Below, one piece after another: positions 33,457-37,608 of a DNA stretch of 41,926 nt. Within the stretch, counting starts at the first letter, position 1; every line of letters starts with the position of its first letter. Made by a program: the position numbers and the translations under genes. This stretch comes from Candidatus Nomurabacteria bacterium RIFCSPHIGHO2_01_FULL_37_25 (GTDB lineage: Bacteria > Patescibacteriota > Minisyncoccia > Phycocordibacterales > UBA9973): the NCBI GenBank assembly GCA_001786765.1, contig MFTH01000013.1, positions 83,974 to 125,899 of the forward strand. Reading direction: 5' to 3'. The notes beneath the pieces are model-generated. The model had not been told where the DNA came from. It searched no databases and saw nothing but the letters and a program-made list of their open reading frames with translations.

Positions 33457-33717
33457 ATGTTAGCGACTAAGAAAAAGCAAACAATTATAAAAAAGAGCCA
33501 AATTCACGACAAGGATACAGGTTCCCCTGAGGTGCAAGTAGCTGTTATTTCCGCTTCCATTGATGAATTGGCGAAGCATTTAAAGAAACACAAAAAAGAC
33601 AATCATTCTAGAAGGGGATTAATCAAGATGGTGGCTGACAGACGCACTCATCTAAAATATCTAGAGCGAACAAACAAGACTCGCTACAACGCGCTCATAA
33701 AGAAAATTGATTTGTAA
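33457..33717 (+). CDS. rpsO: 30S ribosomal protein S15
   Basis: 86 aa, normal length. It binds the central domain of 16S rRNA (helices 20-22). Recognisable blocks are TGSPEVQVAVISASIDELA, HLKKHKKDNHSRRGLIKMVA and RRTHLKYLE. In many bacteria rpsO directly precedes pnp. Here a NYN-domain gene and a membrane-protein gene have come between them. The usual S15-binding leader pseudoknot cannot exist because the -10 box is 6 nt from the ATG. Confidence 0.97.
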   Translation: MLATKKKQTIIKKSQIHDKDTGSPEVQVAVISASIDELAKHLKKHKKDNHSRRGLIKMVADRRTHLKYLERTNKTRYNALIKKIDL

Positions 33718-33760: not shown

Positions 33761-34270
33761 ATGACAGTTATAAAACACAAAGAACAGAGGGTTGGGGTTT
33801 TTATTGATACTCAAAATCTATACCATAGCGCTCGCAATTTATATAAAATGCGGGTGAATTTCGGCGCAGTTTTGAAAGACGCTGTTTTTGGCAGGAAGCT
33901 TGTGCGAGCTGTAGCCTATGTCATTACCACTGAAGCGCATGATGAAAAGAATTTCTTTGAAGCTCTCACTAAACTTGGAATAGAAACCAAAACAAAAGAC
34001 CTGCAAATCTTTGCAGGTGGAGCAAAAAAAGCTGATTGGGATGTGGGGCTCGCAGTTGATGTTATTAAAATGGCGCCTCGACTTGATTCAGCGGTTATCA
34101 TATCTGGTGATGGCGACTTTATTCCGTTAGTGGAATATTTACAAAGTATTGGTGTGCAAGTGGAAGTAGTTTCATTTGGTAAATCAACTTCTGGAAAACT
34201 TCGCGAAGTGGTGGATGATTTTTTGGATCTTTCCGAGAATCCTAGAAAATATTTGATCGGAGCGAGATAG
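33761..34270 (+). CDS. NYN-domain (LabA/DUF88-like) putative ribonuclease
   Basis: 169 aa. PIN-like NYN domain with the expected acidic set: VGVFIDTQNLYHSAR (Asp, Asn), KKADWDVGLAVDVI (Asp pair) and VIISGDGDFIPLVEYL (SGDGDF). These residues form the metal site of RNA-cleaving NYN proteins. The gene has its own leaderless promoter and the next gene begins 6 nt after its stop. Its position between rpsO and pnp fits an RNA-processing role, though the target is unknown. Confidence 0.85.
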   Translation: MTVIKHKEQRVGVFIDTQNLYHSARNLYKMRVNFGAVLKDAVFGRKLVRAVAYVITTEAHDEKNFFEALTKLGIETKTKDLQIFAGGAKKADWDVGLAVDVIKMAPRLDSAVIISGDGDFIPLVEYLQSIGVQVEVVSFGKSTSGKLREVVDDFLDLSENPRKYLIGAR

Positions 34271-34276
34271 CTATCT

Positions 34277-35131
34277 ATGGAACCCTATTCTGATGAATAT
34301 AGCGAAGTACTCGATATTAAAAAAGTATTTTTTCAAATTCTCAAGAAAAAAATTAAAAACATTATTCTTGGAACTTTTCTATTATTAATTTGGAGTGTTC
34401 TTTGTATTATATTTTTAGTACCAAAAATTACTTCATCGGATTTTGGTTTTTTCCTCATTCTTTTTCCTTGGCTTCTTTTTTTAGGATGGCTTAGCATACT
34501 TTATTCAAAAGTTCGTGAAGCTTTTTGGAAACAGCTTGCTTTAAAATATGGTTGGGAATACACATCTACTAAAAATATATCTCAAGAAAAAGCCCTCTTA
34601 TTTAATATAGGTCATTCTAAATTCGCACCATATGGAATCATAGGTAGCTATAACAATCATCCTTTTCATATCTTTGAATATGAATATACTATCGGAAGTG
34701 GTAAACACAAAACAACGTATTCCTTTACAGTTTTTGAAGTAAAATTTACGGGGACATTTCCACATCTTTATTTAAATTATAAAAGTGATGGATATTCGAA
34801 TATGCCTTCGGTTTTTTCTTCTCTTGCAAAAATTTCTGTTCCATACGAATTTGAAGATAAATTCAAATTATATGCACCGAAAGAATATGAGACAGAAACA
34901 CTTGAAATTTTTACTCCTGACATTTTTGCACTCCTTATTGATTCAAAATGGAATCATGATATGGAATTTGTGGATGGCGAACTCATTATTTATAGAAATG
35001 AAAAGTTTAACAATTTTACAGACCTCGATGGAGAGTTTAATAAGATTAAAAAATTCATTAGTATTCTCTCTCCACGACTAAACAGACTCAAGCTTACTCA
35101 GATTGGAGATATAGCACCTCTGTTGCGTTAG
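34277..35131 (+). CDS. Two-helix membrane protein, DUF3137-like
   Basis: 284 aa. Two adjacent transmembrane helices (IILGTFLLLIWSVLCIIFLV and FFLILFPWLLFLGWLSILYS) lie in the first 80 residues, followed by ~200 residues of soluble, beta-rich cytoplasmic sequence (HPFHIFEYEYTIGSGKHKTT). The plan, a helical hairpin followed by a domain that starts with a KYGWEY-type block, recalls the DUF3137 family, but I am not certain. It is cotranscribed with the NYN gene and ends in a terminator that overlaps its stop codon. Confidence 0.65.
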   Translation: MEPYSDEYSEVLDIKKVFFQILKKKIKNIILGTFLLLIWSVLCIIFLVPKITSSDFGFFLILFPWLLFLGWLSILYSKVREAFWKQLALKYGWEYTSTKNISQEKALLFNIGHSKFAPYGIIGSYNNHPFHIFEYEYTIGSGKHKTTYSFTVFEVKFTGTFPHLYLNYKSDGYSNMPSVFSSLAKISVPYEFEDKFKLYAPKEYETETLEIFTPDIFALLIDSKWNHDMEFVDGELIIYRNEKFNNFTDLDGEFNKIKKFISILSPRLNRLKLTQIGDIAPLLR

Positions 35132-35166: not shown

Positions 35167-35197
35167 TTGCTTTTCAGCTCAAAAATGCTACTATAAA
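35167..35197 (+). promoter_or_regulatory. Candidate promoter of pnp
   Basis: TTGCTT, 19-nt spacer, TATAAA. The expected start near 35204 gives pnp a leader of about 265 nt, in contrast to the leaderless neighbours. Confidence 0.45.
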
Positions 35198-35203
35198 AAT
35201 TAG

Positions 35204-35344
35204 TTTATTAGTCCCGACGTAAAGTTGGGACCCTGATTTATAAAGCGTCGGGGTTAATCCGTTCGCGTCTAGACATAAAGTAGTGTTTCCCAGAAAAAAA
35301 TATTTGGTGAAACAACACTGTAGTCTGGATACGAACTTAGACAC
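35204..35344 (+). ncRNA. Structured 5' leader of pnp (candidate regulatory RNA)
   Basis: The gene-free gap 35132-35469 holds a highly structured segment. A first hairpin GTCCCGACG...GGGAC (35211-35231) competes with a pairing of CCCGACG to CGTCGGG (35246-35252). A long stem then joins GTTCGCGTCTAGAC (35261-35274) to GTCTGGATACGAAC (35323-35336), with one mismatch and two G-T pairs, and encloses AGTGTT...AACACT. Mutually exclusive pairings are typical of attenuators and ligand-binding leaders. I do not recognise a known riboswitch. A role in pnp control, as PNPase autoregulates in E. coli, is inference. It could also be a small independent RNA. Confidence 0.5.
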
Positions 35345-35454
35345 ATTCATAAAATATAATTTTCTTTCGGTACGGATTTTTTGAAGCTTAAAAAATCCTG
35401 AAGTTCTCGGCTCGCCAGCCTCGAAACCCCTTCAGAAAATTATATTTTATGAAT
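35345..35454. repeat. Two-hairpin palindromic element, copy C (just before pnp)
   Basis: The clearest copy. Two perfectly complementary 21-nt arms (ATTCATAAAATATAATTTTC.. and its complement) are unique to this site. They enclose GGATTTTTTGAAGCTTAAAA(AATCC) as hairpin 1 and TCTCGGCTCGCCAGCCTCGA as hairpin 2, giving a three-way-junction plan. The right arm ends 15 nt before the pnp ATG, so in RNA it would sit at the ribosome entry site. Confidence 0.9.
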
Positions 35455-35469
35455 CTATAAAAAAAATTC

Positions 35470-37608
35470 ATGCAAAAAAAAGAATATAGTGTGGAGATAG
35501 GCGGAAAAAATTTGACTGCTATTTTTACAGATTTAGCAGAGCAAGCTCATGGGTCAGTGATGTTAAAATATGGCGAGACTATAGTGCTCGCAACGGTTTG
35601 TATGTCAAAAGACAAACAAAATGGTCTAGGCTTTTTTAATTTAACAGTAGATTATGTAGAGAAATTTTATGCAACTGGAAAAATTCTAGGCTCTCGTTTT
35701 ATGAGAAGAGAAGGCAAGCCGTCAGAAGACGCGATACTCGCAAGTCGGGTGATTGACAGGACTCTTCGTCCGCTTTTTGACCAATCAATTCGTCATGCCG
35801 TGCAAGTTATCGTGACGGTTATTTCGGTTGACGATAATGACCCTGTTATTTTAGCAGTTAATGCTGCTTCGCTAGCTCTCGCAGTTTCAAATATTCCTTG
35901 GAACGGACCTATCGGTTGTGTGCGTATTGGTAAATATAATGATGAAAATTTAAAAATAAACCTTGCAAAACTACGTGACGAAGACTCTCTAAATGGGAAC
36001 CTTACAGGTGAAATGCAATATAAATTTGACCTGACCGTTTGTGGGAAAAATGGAAATATAAATATGATTGAAGCCTCTGCGCGCGAAGTTTCAGAAAAAG
36101 AACTGGAAAAAGCCTTAGAAGAGGCAAGTAAAGAAATAACCAAATTAGAAAATTTTCAAAAAAATATCGTAAAAGAAATCGGCAAAGAAAAAAGAGTTAT
36201 AGAAAAAGAAGAAATAGATTCTCAATCTGTAAAATTGTTTAATGAAAATATTTTGCCAAAGATGCCTCCTGCTATTTTTTCTGGAGCAGGGAAAGAAAAA
36301 ATAGATGAATTACACAATGTTTGGAATAAAATGGTTGCTGATAATTTTCCAGACAGGGAAGATTTTGCGCTAGAAGATAATTTATTTGATGACACAGAAA
36401 ACGATATCTTGCACCAAAAAGCGATTCAAGAAAATAAAAGAGCTGACGGCAGAGGGATGGATGAACTTCGTGATATTTATGCGCAAGCAGGAGGCGTCTC
36501 GGCAGTTTTACATGGTTCAGGAATTTTTTATCGTGGAGGAACACACGTCCTTTCAGTTCTTACACTGGGTGGTCCAGAAGATAGACATTCTATTGACGGC
36601 ATGCAGACAAAACTTGAAAAAAGATTTATGCATCATTACAATTTTCCACCTTATTCATCTGGAGAAACAGGACGAGCGGGATTTACAAATCGTCGAGAAG
36701 TTGGGCATGGCGCGTTAGCTGAAAAAGCGTTGGCTATGGTTTTACCACCTCTTTCCGAATTTCCATATACTATTCGTGTAGTTTCTGAATCAATGGCTTC
36801 AAATGGTTCTACTTCTCAAGCATCAATCTGCGCTTCCACTCTCGCGCTCATGGATGGTGGCGTGCCGATTTTAGCGCCTGTCGCAGGTATAGCTATGGGG
36901 CTTATGCATGAGACTGATGAAAAATATAAGATTTTAACTGACATTCAAGGACCAGAGGACCATCATGGAGATATGGATTTTAAGGTTGCTGGGACAAGGA
37001 AAGGTGTTACCGCTATACAATTAGACGTAAAAGTAGAAGGGGTGCCAATAAAAATATTAGGTGAAGCGATGGAGCAGGCAAAAAATGCCAGGATAATTAT
37101 TTTAGATAAAATTCAAAAAGAAATTAAGGCTCCACGCAAAGAGATATCTCCGAACGCTCCAAAGATACTTATTATTAAAATTAATACAGATATGATTGGC
37201 ATGGTTATAGGCGGTGGAGGCAAGACCATCAAGGAAATAAAAGAAAAAACTGGAGCGGAAATAACCATTGAGGATGATGGAACAGTTTATTTTACTGGCA
37301 AAGGCGATGGAGCAGAAAAAGCCAAGTCTATAGTTTTGGAAATGACGCATGAATATACAGTAGGAGAGGTCTTAAAAGGTGAGGTTGTAAAAATCGCTGA
37401 TTTTGGAGCTTTTGTCAAGTTGAATTCTTTTACCGATGGAATGGTGCATATCTCAGAGCTTGCGCCATTTCGCGTAGAGAGAGTTAGCGATATAATAAAG
37501 GAAGGTATGATTGTGCCAGTGAAAGTCATATCTATAGATAGAGAAAAAAGCAGGATTGGTCTGTCTATTCGTGAAGCTGATAAATATTTCTTCAATGGAT
37601 CCCGTTAG
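35470..37608 (+). CDS. pnp: Polyribonucleotide nucleotidyltransferase (PNPase)
   Basis: Phosphorolytic 3'-5' exoribonuclease of mRNA decay, 712 aa, usual length. Domains: RNase PH 1 (residues ~1-215, with GSRFMRREGKPSEDAILASR), a helical linker, RNase PH 2 (~315-545, with RADGRGMDELRDI, HGDMDFKVAGTRKGVTAIQ), KH (~558-615, MIGMVIGGGGKTIKEIKEKT) and S1 (~620-700, GEVVKIADFGAFVKLNSFTD). The KH loop is GGGGK where GPGGK is common. The stop TAG and the last residues (GSR) are read from the start of palindromic element copy 2, so the original C-terminus was probably altered by its arrival. A long structured leader precedes it. Confidence 0.96.
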   Translation: MQKKEYSVEIGGKNLTAIFTDLAEQAHGSVMLKYGETIVLATVCMSKDKQNGLGFFNLTVDYVEKFYATGKILGSRFMRREGKPSEDAILASRVIDRTLRPLFDQSIRHAVQVIVTVISVDDNDPVILAVNAASLALAVSNIPWNGPIGCVRIGKYNDENLKINLAKLRDEDSLNGNLTGEMQYKFDLTVCGKNGNINMIEASAREVSEKELEKALEEASKEITKLENFQKNIVKEIGKEKRVIEKEEIDSQSVKLFNENILPKMPPAIFSGAGKEKIDELHNVWNKMVADNFPDREDFALEDNLFDDTENDILHQKAIQENKRADGRGMDELRDIYAQAGGVSAVLHGSGIFYRGGTHVLSVLTLGGPEDRHSIDGMQTKLEKRFMHHYNFPPYSSGETGRAGFTNRREVGHGALAEKALAMVLPPLSEFPYTIRVVSESMASNGSTSQASICASTLALMDGGVPILAPVAGIAMGLMHETDEKYKILTDIQGPEDHHGDMDFKVAGTRKGVTAIQLDVKVEGVPIKILGEAMEQAKNARIIILDKIQKEIKAPRKEISPNAPKILIIKINTDMIGMVIGGGGKTIKEIKEKTGAEITIEDDGTVYFTGKGDGAEKAKSIVLEMTHEYTVGEVLKGEVVKIADFGAFVKLNSFTDGMVHISELAPFRVERVSDIIKEGMIVPVKVISIDREKSRIGLSIREADKYFFNGSR

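Follow-up and report, generated by a model that had tools for sequence, protein, structure and literature searches.

A conserved hairpin leader upstream of pnp in Candidatus Nomurabacteria and related bacteria

Autocontrol of pnp is described in E. coli, where RNase III cleaves a stem-loop in the leader and PNPase then degrades the resulting duplex (PMC7866481; PMC3997798). The Actino-pnp RNA (RF01688) is listed as cis-regulatory and not as a switch (PMC2864571). Here we describe the leader of pnp, encoding polynucleotide phosphorylase (PNPase), in Candidatus Nomurabacteria bacterium RIFCSPHIGHO2_01_FULL_37_25; the window analyzed is a stretch of 41,926 nucleotides that forms part of contig 13 of a 0.73 Mb genome. 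The conserved part of this leader, element B, resembles the E. coli leader in being a long double-stranded hairpin downstream of rpsO, and an RNase III gene was found in most genomes carrying it. The two differ in that cleavage is proven in E. coli but only predicted for B, and in that two near-complete genomes retain B although searches for RNase III came up empty in them. Actino-pnp, which takes its name from pnp, is like B a structured and conserved cis-regulatory RNA, but it is restricted to Actinomycetales.

Searches of Rfam at gathering score gave no match beyond tRNAs for the window or for 20 related loci, and low-threshold scans (E up to 10 or 5) of three leaders returned only tRNAs and chance matches. 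Actino-pnp did not score at its gathering threshold, and the low-threshold scans did not list it either. With R2, one of two covariance models of B, no match up to E 10 was obtained in the E. coli rpsO-pnp region, and a kinship of B with the E. coli or Bacillus pnp leaders was rejected, as the regions of neither match the model. In the literature searched, no cis-regulatory RNA was described as particular to candidate-phylum (Patescibacteria) genomes, and we found nothing relevant on Patescibacteria regulatory RNAs and repeats.

The pnp locus and its three-part leader

The usual gene order is rpsO-pnp. Locally it is rpsO, an NYN gene, a 284-amino-acid ORF and pnp, and the closest relatives of the pnp in the window are Candidatus Nomurabacteria and related Paceibacterota records. 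The features of the locus are:

33457..33717, + strand: rpsO (ribosomal protein S15), upstream of pnp; Pfam Ribosomal_S15
33761..34270, + strand: NYN-domain gene; Pfam NYN
35167..35194, + strand: predicted pnp promoter, TTGCTT-16-TACTAT with extended -10 (TGC), from sequence
35470..37608, + strand: pnp, polynucleotide phosphorylase, 712 aa; Pfam RNase_PH x2, KH_1, S1

The 284-amino-acid ORF (window 34277-35131), between the NYN gene and pnp, has no Pfam match. Other genomes of the genus (L022 and others) have the NYN gene directly before the pnp leader.

The predicted promoter consists of TTGCTT at 35167, a 16-nt spacer and TACTAT with an upstream TGC (extended -10, 35186-35194), and is missing from the list produced by a simple consensus promoter scan. 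Given this promoter-like sequence the leader is about 265-270 nt long, in agreement with the ~265 nt of the initial annotation. An extended -10 of the form TG[CT]TANNNT was seen upstream of B in 53/67 genus leaders, mostly 15-18 nt before it. All the pieces of the structured leader that had been described were found in place, and the leader folds far better than its shuffles (-89 vs -50.7 kcal/mol, z -8.1, 0/200 shuffles as good).

When the leader sequence was searched against 41 genomes, query positions 67-126 (element A) gave scattered matches, positions 122-206 (element B) matched directly before pnp in the genus, and positions 219-318 (element C) gave many scattered matches in this genome and others. 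The leader is thus a composite of three separate elements, not one switch:

35205..35257, + strand: element A, a dispersed tandem-hairpin repeat between promoter and B (H1 35212-35230, H2 35231-35253); from copies elsewhere, empty sites and pair counts
35253..35337, + strand: element B, the conserved pnp leader RNA; from covariance models R1/R2, a single locus in the genome, at pnp
35345..35454, + strand: element C, a dispersed fold-back repeat (arms 35345-35365 / 35434-35454, core about 35369-35430); from genome matches and arm complementarity

In this genome's copy A and C are insertions of dispersed repeats flanking B; they are unrelated to B, which is the conserved part of the leader. The same query gave 22 match rows in this genome, for the most part C, with a few that belong to A or B or are strand duplicates; a genome of another family (G037) gave 18.

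Structure and distribution of element B

Element B is made up of two helices around an internal loop, with the following parts:

35261..35274, + strand: outer helix P1, 5' arm (partner 35323-35336); two-sided changes
35323..35336, + strand: outer helix P1, 3' arm; two-sided changes
35275..35278, + strand: conserved asymmetric internal loop, 5' side (3' side 35320-35322); near-invariant columns in alignments A1/A2
35279..35319, + strand: inner helix P2 and variable apical loop (35290-35308); covariation and length variation

P1, which pairs 35261-35274 with 35323-35336, corresponds to the 14-bp long-range stem of the initial annotation. The leaders of about 70 genus genomes were taken, and an iterated profile search gave 68 matches, of which one came from a distant relative and nearly all from the genus itself. 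In the genus alignment of B (54 sequences) 88% of cells were paired in this two-helix form, and 14 pairs showed two-sided changes; cells with such changes numbered 102, compared to 45 in shuffles and at most 37 in slid controls. An order-wide alignment of 32 sequences, chosen by eye, had 90% paired cells and two-sided changes in 21/24 pairs (163 cells vs 57 in shuffles; slid controls at most 53). Because these sequences were chosen by eye, a held-out set of 29 distinct sequences was also checked, and two-sided changes were seen in 19/24 pairs (99 vs 31 cells), although this alignment was fitted to the model and its counts lean towards it. Within P1, two-sided changes affected 9/15 pairs in the genus and 13/14 in the order. 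The order-wide form of B is GAUA-nn-UAG...UUGAA / UUCAA...CUA-AA-AUC. This very strong covariation in the alignments indicates an RNA structure under selection.

The apical loop varies in length from a few to more than 60 nt among relatives, and in L053, L064, L158, L168 and L179 hairpin-like repeats are inserted in it, such as CCTTCGAC...CTCAGGG. These insertions suggest that the loop itself is not recognised and, since it is free to vary, recognition of B probably lies in the stem and internal loop.

Model R1 matched leaders of distant lineages directly before pnp. Model R2 gave matches in 58 of 158 order genomes; in 57 of the 58 the best match shares the strand of pnp and lies upstream of it, at a median distance of 11 nt. 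The one exception (G157) lies at a contig end in sequence that resembles the beginning of the stretch preceding pnp in the same genome, and so may be an assembly break. Of order genomes with a pnp N-terminal match, 57 of 109 carry B; about half of the pnp-bearing order genomes, with 158 genomes covered, had no R2 match. Among the order and class loci taken, 46/46 B matches precede pnp, as do 18/18 further class-level matches. B was also found before pnp in one genome of another class (L327); a further match outside the class, in G643, was a low-complexity repeat and was dropped. Overall, B extends through the whole class and is present before pnp in nearly all relatives.

In eleven genus genomes (G042, G045, G050, G051, G055, G011, G061, G075, G079, G095 and G085) the pnp query gave an S1-type match only, suggesting that pnp has been lost, and B is absent too (0/11 genus genomes without a full pnp have it). 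In G077 pnp and RNase III are present and B was not found. B accompanies pnp genes with a promoter of their own as well as those that directly follow the upstream gene; as about 14 leaders without an extended -10 retain it, most of them running straight on from the upstream gene, B need not be the 5' end of the transcript.

By its genomic positions, B is tied to pnp and to nothing else. This position, together with the covariation, argues that B is a cis-acting leader RNA of pnp that is new and class-wide, and we regard its existence as a regulatory RNA as near certain. The initial annotation had proposed a structured regulatory leader and had named a lack of conservation or covariation upstream of pnp in close relatives as the finding that would count against it. 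The opposite was seen, both being strongly present, and the proposal is strongly supported by the covariation and pnp-bound position of B.

The dispersed repeats A and C

Copies of A were found away from pnp, both in this genome and in others, and most pnp leaders have an empty site, TTATTAG^TTAATC, where A sits here. Four genomes carry A at the site before pnp: this one, G019, G048 and G060. A pattern search found A in 24/80 genus genomes, and the reversed control found none. Further copies were noted at L021-L029, L052, L065 and L275-L324. The loops are almost all GNNAA.

The initial annotation had described a hairpin in this region competing with a downstream segment. Both the hairpin (35212-35230) and its rival CGTCGGG (35246-35252) are present, but the compensatory changes follow two local hairpins: at the outermost pair these are kept in 43/47 and 47/47 copies, compared to 28/47 for the competing pairing, and the outer pairs of H1 and H2 switch C-G/T-A together, which the competing pairing does not follow. 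A competing-hairpin switch in A was therefore rejected, as the pair counts show that the mutually exclusive pairings are not both kept.

Between co-directional genes, all unambiguous copies of A were in the sense orientation (24 sense, 0 antisense). Seven copies inside predicted ORFs were also sense, and one copy, located before rplL, was counted as lying within an antisense ORF, itself probably spurious. A is often found 7-100 nt before tuf, rpoB, nusA, rplL, rpsA, rnc, atpE, csp, mraZ, glnA and pnp, gene names that were assigned by eye from the first residues. A DNA palindrome would not be expected to show such a sense bias, which suggests a role at the RNA level. That A is a functional, sense-only mRNA module spreading before translation and RNA-turnover genes, possibly by RNA-level movement, and in this species adding pnp to a shared post-transcriptional regulon, is a speculative reading that we consider doubtful.

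The palindrome near the start codon described in the initial annotation is real, with 21/21 complementary arms and an end 15 nt before the ATG, but it is the dispersed repeat C. C occupies the interval from B to the start codon here and in L040, L051, L067 and L155, with a short form in L162. Its copies share a common core, GGTACGGATTTTTTGAAGCTTAAAAAATCCTGAAGTTCTCGGCTCG.CAGCCTCGAAACCCC, flanked by arms of about 20 bp; the arm sequences vary from copy to copy, and the two arms of any one copy are complementary. Other copies were seen at L002-L018 and L332-L345, and also in other families of the order. The orientation bias of C is weaker than that of A. Both repeats resemble small dispersed repeats (MITE, REP, RUP, Correia-like) in being short, palindromic, present in many copies and mostly intergenic. 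A differs from these in its almost exclusive mRNA-sense orientation, and C in its copy-specific complementary arms around a fixed core; terminal inverted repeats common to all copies, as in a MITE, were not found for C.

Possible modes of action of element B

We consider it modestly probable, and the best of several readings, that B is a cis-acting leader RNA for post-transcriptional feedback by PNPase. B would work after transcription as a double-stranded site; a protein or nuclease, RNase III and/or PNPase itself, would recognise it at the internal loop, and PNPase may then act back on its own mRNA by changing its stability or translation, as with the unrelated E. coli leader. Recognition at a stem and internal loop would suit a dsRNA processing or protein-binding site. 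An RNase III gene was found in 23/26 genomes in one search and 32/35 in another, this genome included. Profile and protein searches did not find it in G009 (99% complete) or G019 (100%), both of which keep B. A strict RNase III dependence of B was set aside in view of these two genomes, and because of them we take autocontrol as the best of several readings. Of the three that the initial annotation had offered, the RNase-cleaved autoregulatory leader stays the best, with cleavage as a putative step.

Retention of B where RNase III was not found also fits binding by another protein, such as a translational repressor or a ribosomal protein, which would control ribosome access with no involvement of PNPase or RNase III. 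In most genomes about 8-30 nt separate the end of the hairpin from the start codon, which places it within or beside the ribosome footprint; the internal loop is conserved, and the gene upstream of pnp encodes S15, a candidate binder. An SD-like motif overlaps the 3' arm of B in 9/68 genus leaders. This overlap is a minority, so general SD sequestration by B was rejected, and no second gene carries B, though a general repressor would allow it; we judge this explanation rather unlikely. A constitutive stabiliser or insulator that protects the pnp mRNA and senses nothing would account for the long stable helix and variable apical loop, but the near-invariant internal loop and strict gene specificity exceed what a generic stabiliser needs, and B also occurs away from the promoter, after an upstream gene, which makes such a role improbable.

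The other two readings of the initial annotation fared less well. B is, as a small-molecule riboswitch would be, a conserved structured leader of one gene; it is also a single hairpin with a small conserved internal loop, in which no aptamer with an expression platform was found (no convincing terminator, and the SD overlap given above), and its gene set is one nuclease gene, with no metabolic or transport genes, so that we think a riboswitch very unlikely. Attenuation by competing hairpins, the main reading proposed, draws on the ability of CCCGACG to pair with two partners and on one weak terminator-like site (35211-35231). A terminator in the leader was rejected, as this weak site is the only one, and the hairpins have no real U-tract; the competing segment lies in repeat A, which is absent from most pnp leaders, and the pair changes favor the two local hairpins, leaving attenuation scarcely credible. 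That all three parts are mobile palindromes without function agrees with the dispersed nature of A and C, and is refuted for B, which has a single copy per genome, invariably at pnp, and covaries across the class; we give it a negligible probability.

Element B is a class-wide, gene-specific and strongly covarying leader RNA of candidate-phylum bacteria, and it supplies a ready covariance model for an RNA family library. With genomes at hand that retain B but yielded no RNase III, what reads the hairpin becomes a directly testable question. If autocontrol through B is true, PNPase control by a leader hairpin would exist, or would have evolved separately, in reduced bacteria.
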